Below are positions 8,599 through 28,416 of a stretch of DNA of 34,441 bases, piece after piece (position 1 is the first letter of the stretch; each line of letters starts with the position of its first letter). Location of the stretch: the NCBI GenBank assembly GCA_005878615.1, contig VBLT01000108.1:1-34441 (forward strand), given 5' to 3'. The stretch is from Methanobacteriota archaeon (GTDB lineage Archaea; Thermoplasmatota; Thermoplasmata; RBG-16-68-12). Below the pieces are notes generated by a model. It ran no database searches, had not been told where the DNA came from, and was given only the letters and a program-made list of their open reading frames with translations. The position numbers and the translations under genes were made by a program.

Positions 8599-10731
8599 AT
8601 GCGAATCCTCGTCTGCGTCGCATGGCCGTACGCCGCGGGCCCGCGACACCTTGGGCACGCCGTCTCGACGTTCATCCCCGCGGACATCGTCGCGCGTTAC
8701 CACCGCATGATCGGGGATGAGGTCCTGATGGTCGGCGGCACCGACATGCACGGCACCCCGACGATGGTCCTCGCGGACGAAGAGGGAGTCGCGCCGAGCG
8801 TCATCGCGGAGCGGTACCACGCCCTCCACGCGAAGAACATCGAACAGCTCGGCGTCCAATACGACCTCTACTGGAACACCGCGGACCCGCACCACAAGGA
8901 GTGGGTCCAGGAAATCTTCCTCGCCCTCAAGGAAAAAGGCCACATCTACGAAGGGACGATGGTCTCTCCCTTCTGCGTCACGGACCAGCGGTTCCTCCCG
9001 GACCGCTACGTCGAGGGCATCTGTCCTCACTGTGGATTCCCGCGGGCCCGAGGGGACCAGTGCGAGAACTGCGGGCGGATCCTCGATCCGTTCGAACTGA
9101 AGGAACCGAGATGCCGGATCCACGGCACGACCCCCATCCCGAAGGAGACGAAGCACTTCTTCTTCCGGCTCAGCGCCTTCGAGAAGCCGCTGGCGGCATG
9201 GGCGGAGGATGACAAGGAGCACTGGCGGCACCACGTCCTCACGTTCATGCGCAGCTGGCTCCGGGAGGGGCTGAAGGACCGACCGATCACGAGGGACCTG
9301 GACTGGGGCATCGAGGTGCCCGTCCCCGGCTATGAATCGAAGCGCATCTACGTCTGGTTCGAGGCCGTGATGGGATACCTCACCGCGACGAAGGAGTGGT
9401 ATCGCCGCCGCAATCGGCCGGAGGGATGGCGGGACTTCTGGTACGATCCGAAGGCGCGGCATTACTACTTCATCGGGAAAGACAACATCGTCTTCCACAC
9501 GATCATTTGGCCCGCGATCCTGATGGGGTACGACCGCAAGATGGACCTTCCGTACGATGTGCCGGCCACCCAATACCTGAACATCTCCGGCGAAAAGATG
9601 AGCGCCGGGAGGGGCAAGGGCGCCTGGTTGCCGGACCTCCTCGAGCGATTCGACCCGGACCAAATCCGGTACTACGGGATCGCGACGATGCCGGAGACGA
9701 AGGACACGGACTTCGAATGGGAGGACTTCGAGCGACGGAACAACAACGAGCTCCTCGCGATCTACGGGAACTTCGTCCACCGGGCCCTCACATTCGCCGA
9801 CAAGAACTTCGCCCATGAGGTCCCGCCGGCGACGTTCCTCGACGCGACCGACAAGGCGATGGTCCGTGCGATCGAGCAGCAGGTCGGGAAAGTCGCCCAG
9901 AACCTCGAGTACGTCCACATCAAGGACGCGATGAAGGAGGCGATTCAGCTCGCTCGGCTCGGCAATCAGTATGTCGACCAGAAGGCTCCCTGGAACCTGC
10001 TGAAGACGGACCGCGCGGCGTGCGCAACGGCGATCCATGTCGCGCTCCGCGTGAGCCGAGCCCTCGCGATCATCATGGCCCCGTTCCTTCCTCGGAGCTC
10101 GTCCCGCCTGTGGCACGCCCTCGGACACGACTCCGACGTCCACGCGGAACGCTGGAACCAGGCCCTCGACGATCTCCCCGCCGGTCAGAAGCTGCGGGTC
10201 GGCAAACCCCTCTTCGCCAAGATCGATCTGCGCGAGCCGTCCGAGGACCCAACCGCGCGGTTCGACGTGCGCGTCGCCCGCATCGTCGATGTCAAGGAGC
10301 ACCCGAACGCGGACAAGTTGTACGTCTTGCAGATCGACATGGGGGACGAACGACGGCAGGTCGTCGCGGGGATCCGGAAGGATTACCCGATCGACCGGCT
10401 TCGCGGGAGGAACGTCGTCGTCCTGGCGAACCTCGAGCCCGCGAAACTCCGCGGCATCGAGAGCCGCGGCATGCTCCTCGCGGGAGAGGACGAAACCGCG
10501 GTAGGGCTCCTGATCCCTCCCGAGGACGCCCCTCTCGGCTCGCAGATCCTCGGCGCGAAGGGCGCCCCAACCTTGCCCTTCTCCGAGTTTCAGAAGTACA
10601 AGTTTCAGGTGGGTCCGGACGGGACGGTCGTCTTTCGAGGACTCGGAGGGGAAGCCCAAGTCACCCTCTCCGTCGACGGGAAGCCGGTGCGCGTCGACAA
10701 AGGGCTGAAGGAAGGGACGTGGGTCCACTGA
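8599..10731 (+). CDS. metG: Methionyl-tRNA synthetase with C-terminal tRNA-binding (EMAPII/Trbp111-like) domain
   Basis: HLGH signature, zinc knuckle CPHCGFPRARGDQCENCG, KMSAG at the KMSKS position, C-terminal FDVRVARIVDVKEHPNADKLYVLQIDMG. Confidence 0.95.
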   Translation: MRILVCVAWPYAAGPRHLGHAVSTFIPADIVARYHRMIGDEVLMVGGTDMHGTPTMVLADEEGVAPSVIAERYHALHAKNIEQLGVQYDLYWNTADPHHKEWVQEIFLALKEKGHIYEGTMVSPFCVTDQRFLPDRYVEGICPHCGFPRARGDQCENCGRILDPFELKEPRCRIHGTTPIPKETKHFFFRLSAFEKPLAAWAEDDKEHWRHHVLTFMRSWLREGLKDRPITRDLDWGIEVPVPGYESKRIYVWFEAVMGYLTATKEWYRRRNRPEGWRDFWYDPKARHYYFIGKDNIVFHTIIWPAILMGYDRKMDLPYDVPATQYLNISGEKMSAGRGKGAWLPDLLERFDPDQIRYYGIATMPETKDTDFEWEDFERRNNNELLAIYGNFVHRALTFADKNFAHEVPPATFLDATDKAMVRAIEQQVGKVAQNLEYVHIKDAMKEAIQLARLGNQYVDQKAPWNLLKTDRAACATAIHVALRVSRALAIIMAPFLPRSSSRLWHALGHDSDVHAERWNQALDDLPAGQKLRVGKPLFAKIDLREPSEDPTARFDVRVARIVDVKEHPNADKLYVLQIDMGDERRQVVAGIRKDYPIDRLRGRNVVVLANLEPAKLRGIESRGMLLAGEDETAVGLLIPPEDAPLGSQILGAKGAPTLPFSEFQKYKFQVGPDGTVVFRGLGGEAQVTLSVDGKPVRVDKGLKEGTWVH

Positions 10732-15582: not shown

Positions 15583-15701
15583 CGCCGAGGGGGAGAGTTT
15601 CAGGCAGCCGTCATCAGAGCGGCGGGAGCCATTTGAACTCCCGAGGGCTTACGCCCACCAGCTCTCCAGGCTGGCGCCCTACCGGACTAGGCGACCTCGG
15701 C
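15583..15701 (-). tRNA. tRNA-Ser(GGA) with a T-loop (59/60) intron
   Basis: Minus strand: GCCGAGG acceptor, D-arm, CCAGC-CTGGAGA-GCTGG anticodon arm, variable arm TGGGCGTAAGCCCTC, GGGAG-TTCAAA[35-nt intron]T-CTCCC, CCTCGGC-G; mature length 84 nt. Confidence 0.9.
15597..15631 (-). other. tRNA-Ser intron in T-loop, position 59/60
   Basis: BHB: GGGAG-TTCA-(AAT)-GGC...GCC-TGAA-(ACT)-CTCCC, a 4-bp central helix with two 3-nt bulges. Confidence 0.88.
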
Positions 15702-15747: not shown

Positions 15748-16890
15748 TCAACGCGCCGCGGCCGCCTGAAACGCGCGGGCCATCTCGACGCGGTCGCGGC
15801 CGGTGGGGTGGCTATAAAACAGCCATCTTTCCCAGCGGCGGGGATCGGCGACTCCGAGGTTGAGGTCGTGGAGCTTGACCATCGCGGCGGCGAAACTCGC
15901 CGGATCATCCGTGAGTTGCAGGGAGAAGCGGTCCGCACGACCCTCGCGGGACCGCGAGGCGAACAACTCGGCGGGACGAAACGGGATCGCGAAAAGACTG
16001 AATAGGGTGACGAGGAGCGGGAGGCCCGCGATGTCTCCGGGCGAGCGGACTCCGAAGGAAGGGTATACGGCGGCATAGGTCCAAGCGGCGGCGGCGAGGA
16101 TTGCCAAGGAGACGAGGGATCCTCCGACGAATCCGCGAATCGGATCTCGATTCCTCTGATGGGCTAACTCGTGGGCGAGGACCGTCTCGATTTCCTCCGG
16201 CGAGAAGGCCTGGAGGAGGGTGTCCGTCACGAGGACCCTCCGGGTCCGACCGAACCCCATCACCGCCGCATTCGATCGGCGCGTCTTGGCCGACGCTCGG
16301 AGTTCGAACACTCCGACGATTGGCACATGTGCCTTCGCCGCAAGCGCTTCGAACCGGGTCCGCAGACCCGGATCGCTCAGCGGTCGAAATCGGTAGAAGA
16401 GGGGCACGAGGACGACGGGAGCGAGGAACCCGAGGAGTGCAGACACCGCGACTCCGAGGAGCCAAGCCGCGACCCACCACCATGGTGAGGCGGCCAGCAA
16501 CCATAGGAGGGCGCCGCCCACGGCGATGGACGCTGCCAGGCCAAGCGCCGCCGCCTTGCCGAAGTCCTTCGACCAGCTACCGAGCGTCTGCGAGGACATC
16601 CCCGCGGCCTTCTCCAACCGGTATCCGCCGAGGAAGGCGAAAGGGAGTTCGATCGCGAGGAAGAGCGCGTAGAGGAGGGCGAGGAACAGGACGGAGGAGG
16701 CCCAGGAAGGCCAATGGAACGAGAGGACGGAATCTCGGAGCCGGAACGACCCCCCTAGGATGAGGGCGATGACCGCTACGCCGGAGACGAGGGTCCGCCC
16801 CGCCGAGAGCCGCAGCCGTCGTCGACGGAGGTCTCGCGCCCTCGCCTGTCGATCGGAATCGAAGCCCCACTCATCCACGGCCATGGTCAC
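15748..16890 (-). CDS. M48-family (Ste24/HtpX-like) zinc metalloprotease
   Basis: ETVLAHELAHQRNRDP HExxH motif plus multiple TM helices; ATGA overlap with cbf5. Confidence 0.88.
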   Translation of the reverse strand: MTMAVDEWGFDSDRQARARDLRRRRLRLSAGRTLVSGVAVIALILGGSFRLRDSVLSFHWPSWASSVLFLALLYALFLAIELPFAFLGGYRLEKAAGMSSQTLGSWSKDFGKAAALGLAASIAVGGALLWLLAASPWWWVAAWLLGVAVSALLGFLAPVVLVPLFYRFRPLSDPGLRTRFEALAAKAHVPIVGVFELRASAKTRRSNAAVMGFGRTRRVLVTDTLLQAFSPEEIETVLAHELAHQRNRDPIRGFVGGSLVSLAILAAAAWTYAAVYPSFGVRSPGDIAGLPLLVTLFSLFAIPFRPAELFASRSREGRADRFSLQLTDDPASFAAAMVKLHDLNLGVADPRRWERWLFYSHPTGRDRVEMARAFQAAAAR

Positions 16891-17840
16891 TTCCAGAGTT
16901 TCGGGTAGGTCCCAGGCTCCATCAAGACCCGGCCGGTGTCGGCGGCCGCACCCGATTTCGCGATTACGATTTCGTCCGTCGTCATCAAGGCCTTGGACAG
17001 GGCGACCGCCTCCCCTTTTCCTGTGAAGACGCCGACGGATGCGCCGCGATGGATATGCGGCGAGAGCTTGGCGACCCCGGGGACCGCGAGGTTGGCTCCG
17101 TGGCAGATGGAGTCGACGGCGGTGTCCTTCACCACGATCCGAGGCAGGTGGCGCAACAGGTCCTCCATCGGCCGGAGGATGGTCCGGACCGCGGTTTCGT
17201 CACCCTCCTTCGCGAAGGCCAGCGCGTCCCGGAACGCGTTCAACGGCCGCGCGTCCGACTCCGTGAAGCCGGCCGTCCGTGTGCGGCGGAGGTCGACCAG
17301 GTTCGCGCCGACCCCGAGGGCTTCCCCGAGGTCCACGGCGAGCGTGCGGATGTACGTCCCGGACTCGCAGCGCACGCGGAAGAGGACGTCTCGTCCATCG
17401 ACCTCGAGCGGTTCGAGTTCGTAGACGTGCCGGGTCCTCTGCTCCCGCTTCACCGCCGATCGGACCGGAGGAACCTGGTAGATCTCTCCGACGAAACGCT
17501 GCATCATCGATCGGACGCGTCGGGGGTCCACATCCTGATGGAGCTGGAGGACGCCGACGTATTCCTTGTCTCCCGCGAGGAGGGCTTCGACGGCGCGGGT
17601 CGCATCCGCGAGGGCGACCGGGAGGACGCCCGTCACGCGCGGATCCAAGGTGCCGGAGTGCCCCGCTTTGCGCACCTCGAACATGTCCCGGACCCAGGCG
17701 CTCACCTGATGCGACGTCGGGCCCGCGGGCTTGTCCACAATCGCCACGCCGAGACGGATCCGCTCTGAGAGGGACCGGTCTTCCGGGCGGGTTCCGTGCT
17801 TCGAATCCGGGGTTTCATGGAGGACGACGAGGTCGCTCAT
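16887..17840 (-). CDS. cbf5: tRNA/rRNA pseudouridine synthase Cbf5 (archaeal TruB) with PUA domain
   Basis: VDKPAGPTSHQVSAWV, KAGHSGTLDPRVTGVLPVALA, CESGTYIRTLAVDLGE, C-terminal PUA. Confidence 0.93.
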   Translation of the reverse strand: MSDLVVLHETPDSKHGTRPEDRSLSERIRLGVAIVDKPAGPTSHQVSAWVRDMFEVRKAGHSGTLDPRVTGVLPVALADATRAVEALLAGDKEYVGVLQLHQDVDPRRVRSMMQRFVGEIYQVPPVRSAVKREQRTRHVYELEPLEVDGRDVLFRVRCESGTYIRTLAVDLGEALGVGANLVDLRRTRTAGFTESDARPLNAFRDALAFAKEGDETAVRTILRPMEDLLRHLPRIVVKDTAVDSICHGANLAVPGVAKLSPHIHRGASVGVFTGKGEAVALSKALMTTDEIVIAKSGAAADTGRVLMEPGTYPKLWK

Positions 17841-18376
17841 CCCCGCACCCGCGCGGCGACCGTCACGACGATCTCGTCCGGCGTCTTGTCGGCAGAGTCG
17901 ATCACGAAATCGAAGACGCTCGTGTCCCGCAAGTCGATGCCGTAGATCTGTTTGTACCGGATCCGTTCGGATTCTTCCCGCGCCACGATTTCCCGCCGGG
18001 CTTCGGCCACCGGTTTCTTTTCCCGTTGCGCGATCCGCTGGGCCCGCACCTCGAGCGGGGCGTCGATCAGCGCCTTCAGGCACGGGATCCCCTCCCTCGT
18101 CAAGAGGTGCGCCTGGATCCGCCCGTCGACCACCACGTTCGTTCGTGCGGCTTCCTTCGCGCGGATTTCCTCGAGGATCGCGCGATCGAGGGCGCGGTCG
18201 ATTGATGGATCCTTTTCCGCGGCACGACCGAGGGCCTCCAGCGTCAGGCCGCGAGCCTTCGCCATGGCTCGGAACTTCGTCCCCGCGGAGATGAGAGAGT
18301 ACGCATGGGCCTTCGCCCACCGCTCGGCGACCGTCGTCTTGCCGCTGCCCGGCGGCCCGCCGATCACCAAGATCAT
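17837..18376 (-). CDS. cmk: Cytidylate kinase
   Basis: MILVIGGPPGSGKTTVAE P-loop, VVDGRIQAHLL, archaeal Cmk length. Confidence 0.9.
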   Translation of the reverse strand: MILVIGGPPGSGKTTVAERWAKAHAYSLISAGTKFRAMAKARGLTLEALGRAAEKDPSIDRALDRAILEEIRAKEAARTNVVVDGRIQAHLLTREGIPCLKALIDAPLEVRAQRIAQREKKPVAEARREIVAREESERIRYKQIYGIDLRDTSVFDFVIDSADKTPDEIVVTVAARVRG

Positions 18377-20284: not shown

Positions 20285-21064
20285 TCAAGAGGAGCGTAGC
20301 AACGGACGGATCCCGCGGCCAACGCGCTGGGCCGTCTCGATAATCCGCTTCACTTCGTCGTAAGTAAAGCTTCCACTTAAGCCTTTTTGCATCGCCCGGA
20401 TGTCGCCGTTCTCATCCGTCGTCACGGTGATCCGCGCATCGGACATCCGCTCCTCGTCGAGGGCGGGATCGACGAACAGGACGTCCTTGATTTTCGCGGT
20501 CGTGACGCTGACGGGCCAATGCTCGACCGGGAGGGCGAAGTCGTCCCCGAGGCCCTGGTTCTTTGCCGGGACGACCGTCGACCCGAGGGCCGCGGTGGCG
20601 CCGTAGGAGCACGCGTCGAAGAGGTTCCCGTCGTAGTCGAGCACGTGGATGTCGATGAACATGACCCAGACCTTCTCCTTCGGGGTGATGCACAGCTTCT
20701 CCATGTTCACCATCTTCGATTCGCGGATTCCGCGGTCGACCACGCGGGCGAGCTCGATCGCGTCCGGCCGCGGCGGGCCCGCTTCGAACGTCGGGCTCGC
20801 CAAGGGGACCATCTCGACGCTCGTCGACAGCACGCCCGTGTTCGGGGTGTCGGGGTACGGCTCGCCGACGGACATCTTGATGCCGACGAGGACGTCCGTG
20901 TTCCCCAGTTTCGCGCGGGCGCTCCCTTCCGCGGTCTTGACGTAGGTGCGCTCGAGGGAGAGTTTTCTCGGCTCGTCGAGCGCGCGGCCGTCCACCCGTT
21001 GGCCGGTCGAGGCGAGCCGATACACGTGGGCCCGCATCAGGTCCGAAACGATCTCCTCGCTCAT
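20285..21064 (-). CDS. rrp42: Exosome complex subunit Rrp42
   Basis: RNase PH-like fold motifs; adjacent to rrp41. Confidence 0.94.
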
Positions 21065-21903
21065 CAGATCCCCTCCGGTCCGAAGTCGTCTTCCGGCGGG
21101 GGCGGTGGAGGCTCGAACTCGGGCGCCGGTGGCGCCGGTAGGGGCGGGGACTCCTTCAGGATGTCCTCCAACGTGGTGGAGTACCGTCGGCGCAGGGCAT
21201 CTCGCTGCATCTCGTAGAGGCGGTGCGTGGCGCCAATCGAAAGCTCCATGGCCTTCTGGAACTCGTCCAACGTGAGATGGCCATCCATCTGGAGGAGCAC
21301 GATCTCGCCGGTCCGCGGGACGATCGCGAGGGGGCAGTCCGCGTCCCCGAAGTTGTCCTCCTCCTTGTTCAGGTCGAGGCACACGACGCCGTCGATCTTG
21401 CCGGACGCGCAGGAGGCCACCAGATCCCGCATCGGCACGCCTGCGTCCGCGAGGGCCACGCTCGCCGCCGTCAGACCGGCACACCGCGTGCCCGCATCGG
21501 CCTGCAACACTTCGATGAAGATGTCGACCGATGTCCTCGGGAACTGCTCGCGGAAGACGACCGCCGAGAACGCCTCCGAGATGACCTTGGAAATCTCGAC
21601 GGACCGCCGATCCGGCCCCGGCCGCTTCCGGTCGGACACGCTGAACGGGGCCATGTTGTACCGGCATTGGACGAGCGCCCGCGCCGGGTCCTGCAGGTGC
21701 CTCGGATGGGCCTCCCTCGGACCGTAGACGGCGGCGAGCACCTTGTTGCCGCCCCATTCGATGTACGCGGACCCGTCCGCCCGCCGGAGGATTCCCGCTT
21801 CGATCCGGACCGGCCTCAGCTCGTCCGGTTTCCGACCGTCCAGCCGTCGGCCATCCGCCCTGATCAATTTCATCTCCTTCTCGATGTGCTCGATGTCTTC
21901 CAT
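21064..21903 (-). CDS. rrp41: Exosome complex exonuclease Rrp41, with proline-rich acidic C-terminal tail
   Basis: [63 protein letters not shown]. Confidence 0.95.
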
Positions 21904-21915
21904 ACGAATTACTCC

Positions 21916-22614
21916 TCAGGCGGGCCTCCCGCCCGTCGTGGACCGTCGCTCTCGTTCGATGAGTTCCCGGACCGCCTCCGTGAGCCCGTAGGATTGGGCG
22001 CGCTCCTCGATCAGGCGGATCGCGCTCGCGGCGACGGCGGTGTCCCGGTCCTCTCCGTCCAGCCAGATCCGCCCGTTCTGTCCCACGTAGATGCGGCATC
22101 CCGTGAGTTCCGTGATGAGGGAGATCATGCTCCCCTGTTTCCCGATGACCCGGGGGACCTTTGTCGGGGAGATCTCCATCACGATGCCGCCGTTGAGGCG
22201 GCGGGCCTCCCTCTCCTGCATCGTCAGCTGGACCCGCTTGATTTCGTCCACGCTGAGCACGTGGCCCATGATGACGTCGCCGACCTTCAGATAGCGAGAC
22301 GTGTCGCCGAACTCCACCCGCCACGGGGACTCCGTCGCGTGGAGAGGGGCAGGATAAGGCGAGTTGATGTCGACGAGCCAGTGGGACGGTCCGAGGTCGA
22401 CGACCTCGCCGATGACCGCGTCCCCTCGTTGAGGGATGTACCGGCCGTTGAGGGGGGTCACGCTCACGAGGCCGTCATGCTCGTTCCGAATGCCCAATTG
22501 CGCCGCGAAAACTTGCCCGCCCTCGCTGTAGGTTCCCGGTCCAGGCTTCAGCCCGGGGCCGCCGACGGCTTCGCCCGGAATGACAATCGGGCGGAGCGAC
22601 CCGCTACTTTCCAT
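21916..22614 (-). CDS. rrp4: Exosome complex RNA-binding subunit Rrp4 (S1 + KH)
   Basis: VIPGEAVGGPGLKPGPGTY, S1 domain, KH VPRVIGKQGSMISLI. Confidence 0.94.
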   Translation of the reverse strand: MESSGSLRPIVIPGEAVGGPGLKPGPGTYSEGGQVFAAQLGIRNEHDGLVSVTPLNGRYIPQRGDAVIGEVVDLGPSHWLVDINSPYPAPLHATESPWRVEFGDTSRYLKVGDVIMGHVLSVDEIKRVQLTMQEREARRLNGGIVMEISPTKVPRVIGKQGSMISLITELTGCRIYVGQNGRIWLDGEDRDTAVAASAIRLIEERAQSYGLTEAVRELIERERRSTTGGRPA

Positions 22615-24497: not shown

Positions 24498-24824
24498 TTA
24501 TAAGGGTTCTTTTGCCAGTCCTCGTCGCGCCCGGTCTTTCGACGTCAGATAGTTCCGCGTCGCGGCGCGAATCGTCCCCGATGTGCCGACGGTCGTCACT
24601 TGCACGCGCTCTCCGGCGACCCGATCGAGGCCGTTCAGCGCGCGGATGGCGGCGTCCTTCTCGAGGTTCGTCGTCCGGACGAGCCCCGAGCCGCCGTTGA
24701 ATTGGACGAGCCAGAGCCGGGGCGACAACGCTCGCAGGGCCGCGGCGACCTCCTCCCGTTGGAAGGGCCGCGCGCCGCCCAAGCGAAAGGCGACGTATCG
24801 ATAGCGAGGACGATGGGTGCTCAC
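24498..24824 (-). CDS. rnp2: Ribonuclease P protein component 2 (Pop5)
   Basis: HRPRYRYVAFRLGG...LVQFNGGSGLVRTTNLEKDAAIRALN; GTG start. Confidence 0.85.
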   Translation of the reverse strand: MSTHRPRYRYVAFRLGGARPFQREEVAAALRALSPRLWLVQFNGGSGLVRTTNLEKDAAIRALNGLDRVAGERVQVTTVGTSGTIRAATRNYLTSKDRARRGLAKEPL

Positions 24825-24877
24825 GCTCGGGCGGATTGGAAGGAAACGGAAAAAGGTTGGGGAAAAAGAGGAGGAGG

Positions 24878-26017
24878 TCAGCGTACTTCGTCCACTTCGG
24901 CGGAGGTCTTCACCGGACCGGTGTACACCTCTTTGCCGAGGAGGGACTTCGACTTGACGCCCGTGATGACCAGGAGGACGCGGACCGTGTGCTCCAATTC
25001 GTCGTCGACGGAGCAGCCCCAGATGATCCGGGCCTGCGGGTTGATCTTCTGCCCGACGATTTCCGCGGCGCGCTCCGCCTCGGAGACGGTCAGGTCCCCG
25101 CCGCCGACGACGCGCACGAGCGCACCCCGCGCGTGGGTCAGGTCGACCTCGCCGAGCAGGGGAGACTCGAGCGCCTCGTTGATCGCGTATTCGATCCGGT
25201 CCCGTTCTTCCTCGCTCTCGCCGATCCCGATCATCGCGACGCCGCCGCCCTTCATGATCGTCATGAGGTCCGCGTAATCGAGGTTGACCAAGCCCGGCTT
25301 CGTGATGATCTCGGTCATGCCTTTGATCGACTGCATGAGGATTTCGTCCGCGACCTTGAACGCCGCATTGATGGGCAGGCGCGGCACGAGCTCCAGGAGC
25401 TTGTCGTTGTAGATCACGATCGCGGTATCCGTGAAACGCCGGAGCTTCTCCAGGCCGGCCTCCGCGTTCTCCATCCGGATGCGGCCCTCGGACTTGAAAG
25501 GCATCGTGACGACGCCCATCGTGAGGGCGCCTTCCTCTTTCGCGACGCGCGCCACGTACTGGGCGGACCCCGTGCCCGTGCCGCCGCCCATGCCGGCGGT
25601 GATGAAGACGACGTGGGAGCCTCGGAGGAACCCGCGGATCTCCTCTTCGTTCTCGTGGGCCGCCTGTTCCCCGACCTCCGGCAGGGCTCCTGCGCCAAGG
25701 CCCTTCGTCAGCCGCTTGCCGATCAGGATCTTCTTCGGCGCGTGGACGGACAACAGGTGCTTCGCGTCCGTGTTCACCGCACAAAGCTGCGCGCCGGTGA
25801 TGCCGGCCTCGCTGCACCGGTTGACGGTGTTCGAACCGCCACCGCCGCACCCGACGATCTTGATCGAGACGTTGATCGACTCGACGATCTTCTCGATCTC
25901 TTGGTCGTCGCCGTTCTTCGCCTTTTCCTGCGACTTCGCGGCCTTGGCGGCCTCGCGCTCTTCCTTTGCCTCGGCTTCCTGGTGTCGGGCCAAAGCTTCG
26001 TTGAGAAGCGATTTCAT
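24878..26017 (-). CDS. ftsZ: Cell division protein FtsZ
   Basis: [56 protein letters not shown]. Confidence 0.97.
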
Positions 26018-26145
26018 TGTGCCATCCCATCCCGATGGAGACTGACGCCCGGCCGCATCCCCATATGGCTATTTAAAAGTAGTCATACATTCGTCAGACA
26101 AAACACGCTTTGACATCCGCCACGGGGCTGCCAGGCATTCGAGGC

Positions 26146-28130: not shown

Positions 28131-28209
28131 TCTCAGGTGGCGAAACGAGAAGCCCAGGCCCCATCGAAAGGCCGCCGCGCGGGGTCCACGGTCGATAGCG
28201 GGGGATGGA

Positions 28210-28242
28210 CGTTCCGGGCCGGAGGCGCATCCTGCCGGCCCT
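28210..28242 (-). other. tRNA-iMet T-loop intron (59/60)
   Basis: BHB-like: GATGG-TTCA-(AAA)-GGGCCGG...CCGGCCC-GGAA-(CGT)-CCATC; one A-G mismatch in the central helix. Confidence 0.87.
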
Positions 28243-28264
28243 TTTGAACCATCGATCTCCGGGT

Positions 28265-28293
28265 GTCTCACCGGGGACCTGGGAGTCCCGGGG
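28265..28293 (-). other. tRNA-iMet canonical anticodon-loop intron (37/38)
   Basis: BHB: TCGGG-CTCA-(TAC)-CCCGGGAC...GTCCCCGG-TGAG-(ACA)-CCCGG. Confidence 0.9.
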
Positions 28294-28416
28294 TATGAGC
28301 CCGACGGGATATCCTGGCTACCCCACCCCGCTACCTTGCGCATCGATCCGCAGGCTCGCGACGGCGGTCCTTCGTCCGGATTGGACGGCGCAGGATAAAC
28401 CTATCGCGCGTCGGCG

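Follow-up and report, generated by a model that had tools for sequence, protein, structure and literature searches.

An initiator tRNA gene with two predicted introns, at 37/38 and in the T-loop, conserved in a family of Thermoplasmatota

The window analysed here is a stretch of 34,441 nt with a G+C content of 65% (contig VBLT01000108.1 of assembly GCA_005878615.1), from a Methanobacteriota archaeon that GTDB places in the Thermoplasmatota, class Thermoplasmata, order RBG-16-68-12. On its minus strand lies a gene for initiator tRNA-Met (iMet) whose three exons are separated by two introns. Exon 1 (28294..28332; 39 nt, tRNA positions 1-37) contains the AGCGGGG acceptor strand, the D-arm and the 5' anticodon arm with CAT, and is followed at 37/38 by intron 1 (28265..28293; 29 nt), which is bounded by a strict bulge-helix-bulge (BHB) motif, CTCA/TGAG, with bulges TA^C and AC^A. 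Exon 2 (28243..28264; 22 nt, positions 38-59) supplies the 3' anticodon arm, the variable loop, the 5' T-stem strand GATGG and the T-loop residues TTCAAA. Within the T-loop, at 59/60, comes intron 2 (28210..28242; 33 nt), with a TTCA/GGAA BHB containing an A57.G mismatch and bulges AA^A and CG^T. Exon 3 (28196..28209; 14 nt, positions 60-73) completes the gene with T60, the T-stem strand CCATC, the acceptor strand CCCCGCT and A73; the CCA end is not encoded. The three exons stand in normal order within 137 nt, and the gene is neither permuted nor split. It is intergenic, between a KaiC-type ATPase gene (likely start 28010) and a gene for an SCP2-domain protein. The coordinates and the junctions 28294^28264 and 28243^28209 agree with the original prediction, which had proposed an iMet gene with introns of 29 and 33 nt from the window alone. 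A promoter and terminator scan of bacterial type, which is unsuited to archaea, found nothing.

Removal of both introns yields a 75-nt iMet, AGCGGGGTGGGGTAGCCAGGATATCCCGTCGGGCTCATAACCCGGAGATCGATGGTTCAAATCCATCCCCCGCTA, for which both the minimum free energy (MFE) and the centroid structures are a perfect cloverleaf, and which ARAGORN accepts as a tRNA. The unspliced gene is detected neither by ARAGORN nor by the Rfam model RF00005, and a version from which the 37/38 intron alone has been removed is still undetected by ARAGORN. The spliced molecule carries the marks of an initiator: a CAU anticodon, an A1-U72 pair (AGCGGGG/CCCCGCT, the acceptor pairing expected from the original prediction) and three G-C pairs beside the anticodon loop (CGGG-CTCATAA-CCCG). 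It is distinct from the other CAU tRNA genes of its genome as judged from their sequences, these being an elongator Met gene with a 37/38 intron and an Ile2-type CAT gene with a T-loop intron, whose acceptor strand GGGCCCG is that of tRNA-Ile(GAT).

The two-intron arrangement is found in 22 of 22 genomes of the family, which span two genera, with one copy in each. Across the 22 genomes exons 2 and 3 do not vary, and exon 1 is the same in all 19 genomes of the window's own genus, the sister genus having CT-AG-A for CC-AG-T in the D-loop, while the introns have diverged; intron 1 is 28-29 nt and intron 2, present in every family genome, 32-33 nt long. A second iMet gene was sought with the iMet 5' half, which gave a single match in each of the 22 family genomes; the genome of the window is 85% complete, and two of the relatives with a single iMet are 98% complete. 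Since the gene recurs throughout the family with near-invariant exons and with diverging introns whose stems covary, it is neither a pseudogene nor an assembly error, the latter being ruled out by the diverged introns in 21 other, independent metagenome-assembled genomes (MAGs).

The intron boundaries are constrained in the manner that BHB pairing demands. At 37/38 the gene conforms to the hBHBh' motif, with a 4-bp central helix and two 3-nt bulges, and the intron-side strand TGAG is fully paired in 20 of the 22 family genomes, in keeping with the perfect BHB originally predicted at this site. At 59/60 the T-stem forms the outer helix and the inner helix comprises the 7-bp stem GGGCCGG/CCGGCCC, noted from the outset, together with AGG/CCT. 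In the window this second BHB has both of its 3-nt bulges and a helix on either side, and its central helix consists of three pairs and the A.G mismatch, located at the inner end of TTCA/GGAA. The mismatch, which had also been pointed out before, is a trait of the lineage: it occurs in 16 of the 22 family iMets, the remaining six having a full central helix (TGAA, TGAG or TGGG), as well as in the Leu and Ile2 59/60 introns of the family. At 59/60 in iMets and other tRNAs from other families, the central helix is paired throughout. Throughout the 22 genomes C56 faces a G in the intron, and T54 and T55 each face A or G, exactly the constraint imposed by BHB pairing. Five pairs of the inner stem show compensatory changes on both sides. 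This stem contains 15 double-change cells compared with 4.4 in shuffles, none of 500 shuffles reaching 15, and the covariation score of the T-arm structure, 0.167, compares with 0.02-0.07 for slid registers.

The window holds a second gene with a T-loop intron, that for tRNA-Ser(GGA) (15583..15701, minus strand), in which a 35-nt intron at 59/60 (15631-15597) has a fully paired TTCA/TGAA BHB; this intron is kept in the relatives G005 and G019, and ARAGORN and Rfam both report the gene with wrong boundaries. The window also codes for translation and RNA-processing proteins, at 8599-10731 (plus strand) and at 16887-18320, 20285-22324 and 24498-26030 (minus strand), these being MetRS, a TruB/Cbf5 protein with a PUA domain, an exosome-type protein with an RNase PH domain and a Pop5/Rpp14-like match.

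Across the order, the pattern of iMet interruption differs in almost every family. Labelling the families f1 to f6, iMet has the 37/38 and 59/60 introns in f1, the family of the window; the 59/60 intron only in f2 (G035, G056, G141); a D-loop intron only in f3 (L233-L236, from G046, G115, G074 and G096); D-loop and 59/60 introns in f4 (L217 in G065, L221 in G129); no intron in f5 (G164); and the 37/38 intron only in f6 (G122). The T-loop of iMet is an uninterrupted TTCAAAT in near relatives (G164, G122 and f3). The flanking helices of the D-loop introns of f3 and f4 form no strict hBHBh', as judged by eye. Elsewhere in the class, most iMets among the matches listed have an intact T-loop; a distant member, G101, has an iMet T-loop intron of 131 nt with a TGAA central helix (L228). 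This intron is long enough to contain a small RNA.

Nor are T-loop introns of the order confined to the initiator. Besides Ser(GGA), the window's family has 59/60 introns in Leu(UAA) and Ile2(CAT); f2 has them in Pro(GGG), Cys(GCA) and His(GTG), f4 in Leu and Ile2, f6 in Leu and f3 in His. The presence of Leu(UAA) introns in three families and of Ile2 introns in two suggests that some 59/60 introns predate the split of the families. The tRNA-Cys(GCA) of f2 (L213, L216) has, in addition to its T-loop intron, an apparent extra insert in the D-arm. Nearly all of the T-loop introns have two 3-nt bulges and a central helix of 3 or 4 bp, as if tailored to a strict enzyme; such an enzyme would be strained by the A.G mismatch and by the D-loop introns of f3 and f4. 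Several other candidates were rejected. Seven of 17 matches from a contig search (L085, L087, L089, L093, L096, L098 and L101) have intact T-loops, the pattern having caught a chance CNCGCTA downstream; a match in the window's own genome, C108:27489, was rejected as a tRNA (16 bits); and a weak candidate on C46 proved to be a Pro-like tRNA whose T-loop is uninterrupted. Matches to GTTCGAA-type patterns were mostly coding sequence, and were counted only when anchored to a tRNA.

The splicing enzymes expected for such a gene are encoded. The window's own genome has one open reading frame (ORF) matching PF01974, the tRNA-splicing endonuclease EndA, and this carries two PF01974 units; the same holds for all 12 relatives searched, 11 of which reach 90% completeness or more and have no more than 5% contamination, and no second PF01974 ORF was found in these 13 genomes. 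EndA is a fused chain of 350 aa with two PF01974 and two PF02778 units. Its C-terminal half retains the catalytic triad Y290, H298 and K329, the lysine being the second of a VKK/VRK motif and present in all alignment rows displayed, and its N-terminal half has Pro at the His position in 31 of 31 EndAs. Both arginines of the cation-pi clamp (R280 and R302 of A. fulgidus) have counterparts, R322 in 31 of 31 and R347 in 30 of 31. The EndA of G164 (L195), a genome with an intronless iMet, is alone among the 31 in replacing the second of these arginines by Trp, the residue that (alpha-beta)2 and epsilon2 enzymes have there. In the sequence alignment the specificity-loop insertion of A. pernix, DVEKPRGADFEGP (around K44), falls opposite a 10-residue gap in EndA, the ARMAN-2 loop insertion (K161) likewise meets a gap, and the site of the crenarchaeal (CSL) and ARMAN-2 (ASL) specificity loops has no insertion in any of the 31 EndAs, the region being 10 residues long in all. 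Judged from its sequence, the enzyme is of the single-chain alpha'2 type and appears to lack either specificity loop. The gene content therefore does not bear out the suggestion in the original prediction that the mismatched second BHB might need an endonuclease of relaxed specificity. A gene for the ligase RtcB is present in four of four genomes searched, that of the window included.

From these observations we consider it very probable that the window carries a functional two-intron iMet, the single iMet gene of its genome, whose precursor would be cleaved and ligated. The gene would be transcribed as a precursor with two BHB introns, and in the simplest mechanism both BHBs, at 37/38 and at 59/60, would be cut by the single EndA, acting as an alpha'2 homodimer, because each is strict or nearly strict. 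At 59/60 the T-loop residues TTCA would pair with the intron 4-mer [G/T]-G-R-R, the T-stem serving as outer helix. RtcB would then join the three exons, and the T-loop could close and dock with the D-loop only once the second intron had been excised.

Several points weigh against this. The expression and splicing of the two-intron iMet are inferred from DNA; the 59/60 BHB of the window has the A.G mismatch; in RNA folding at 37 C the TTCA/GGAA helix stays unpaired within a 7x7 internal loop; and the literature portrays the alpha'2 EndAs from known species as narrow enzymes that cleave canonical BHBs (PMC6379350, PMC4033280, PMC4090602). In one rival reading the T-loop insert is retained: the mature iMet would have a lengthened T-arm, and splicing would remove the 37/38 intron alone. 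In the MFE structure the insert does form a stable stem atop the T-stem, so that the RNA would fold, and the mismatch weakens the second BHB, yet we regard retention as very improbable. The insert varies in sequence and in length whereas the exons do not, and its ends are constrained exactly at the sites that a BHB requires; inserts of 18-131 nt occur at 59/60 in other tRNAs and lineages, and near relatives have the uninterrupted loop; and retention would cost the elbow formed between T-loop and D-loop. Still less credible, and largely refuted, is the possibility that the window gene is decayed or silent and that an intact second iMet elsewhere serves the cell. Such a gene could fall in a gap of the incomplete genome of the window, but a single match per genome throughout the family, nearly complete members included, argues against it, as does the purifying selection on both intron-exon structures in all 22 genomes.

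A more serious alternative, which we hold to be possible though the less likely account, accepts that both introns are spliced and holds that EndA is relaxed by a route other than CSL or ASL, or is helped by an unrecognised partner subunit. The prevalence of the A57.G mismatch among the family iMets and its recurrence in Leu and Ile2 are consistent with a relaxed enzyme, as are the D-loop introns of f3 and f4. Against this alternative stand the single PF01974 ORF of each of the 13 genomes, the uniform absence of a CSL/ASL insertion and the many 59/60 BHBs of the order that are fully paired. Cleavage of both BHBs by the alpha'2 EndA as it stands remains our preferred reading. As iMet is single-copy and indispensable, two splicing events would then be a condition for starting any protein in these archaea.

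Of greater interest than the gene itself is its setting, in which non-canonical introns occur across an order with only a loop-less alpha'2 EndA, as far as its sequence indicates. We give about even chances to the proposition that this order spread T-loop and D-loop introns to many tRNAs, the initiator included, with such an enzyme alone, and that the accepted rule of co-evolution between these introns and a loop-bearing EndA is wrong or incomplete. If this is true, then either the strictness of the motif rather than the type of enzyme sets where introns can reside, or EndA is relaxed by an unknown route. The order offers a natural series of iMets with none, one or two introns, at three positions, in sister families with nearly the same EndA, which would permit a direct test of enzyme type against intron position. 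In practice, the number of tRNAs and the quality scores of MAGs may be underestimated for the group, since these genes are either overlooked or modelled wrongly by ARAGORN and Rfam.

According to reviews, canonical BHBs are the only substrates of alpha4 and alpha2 EndAs (PMC4033280, PMC4090602), with efficient removal of relaxed-motif introns limited to the (alpha-beta)2 and epsilon2 enzymes (PMC6379350). Non-canonical introns in three thermophilic euryarchaeal methanogens were earlier exceptions (PMC3218864), and as of 2014 Korarchaeum was the only archaeon known to combine an alpha2 EndA with non-canonical introns (PMC4033280). Korarchaeum cryptofilum resembles the present case in having a fused two-unit EndA together with such introns, and differs in that its EndA bears the loop. 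We found no paper on non-canonical introns in Thermoplasmatota in the open-licence literature, and some of those described here may already appear in tRNA databases made with tRNAscan-SE 2.0. BHB introns at several positions, the T-arm included, and sometimes two or three to a gene, are shared with Thermoproteales, Thaumarchaeota, Caldiarchaeum and Asgard archaea (PMC8450103, PMC3293823, PMC11291895); in crenarchaea and thaumarchaea they are paired with an (alpha-beta)2 EndA (PMC4090602), in contrast to the single alpha'2 enzyme predicted in this euryarchaeal-type phylum. In keeping with the abundance of non-canonical introns in Asgard archaea (PMC11291895), our contig pattern search found iMets with an interrupted T-loop in Borrarchaeota (L090, L091, L094), the first of them with a further 12-nt insert at 37/38; the same search found others in Desulfurococcales/Thermoprotei (L092, L100). 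As these belong to other phyla and their intron sequences are unrelated to those of the window's family, the gains were probably independent. A close parallel is found in Thermofilum pendens, whose permuted tRNA-iMet(CAU) (Chan et al. 2011, PMC3218864), likewise a single-copy essential gene, is disrupted at these two positions, by a BHB joint at 59/60 and by a canonical intron at 37/38. In that crenarchaeon, to which reviews would assign a two-gene (alpha-beta)2 EndA, the 3' part of the gene lies upstream of the 5' part as a circular permutation, whereas the exons of the Thermoplasmatota gene keep their normal order alongside an alpha'2-type EndA. T-loop introns and multi-intron tRNAs are thus already known in other archaea, and the iMet described here is a conserved, unusual gene among them.
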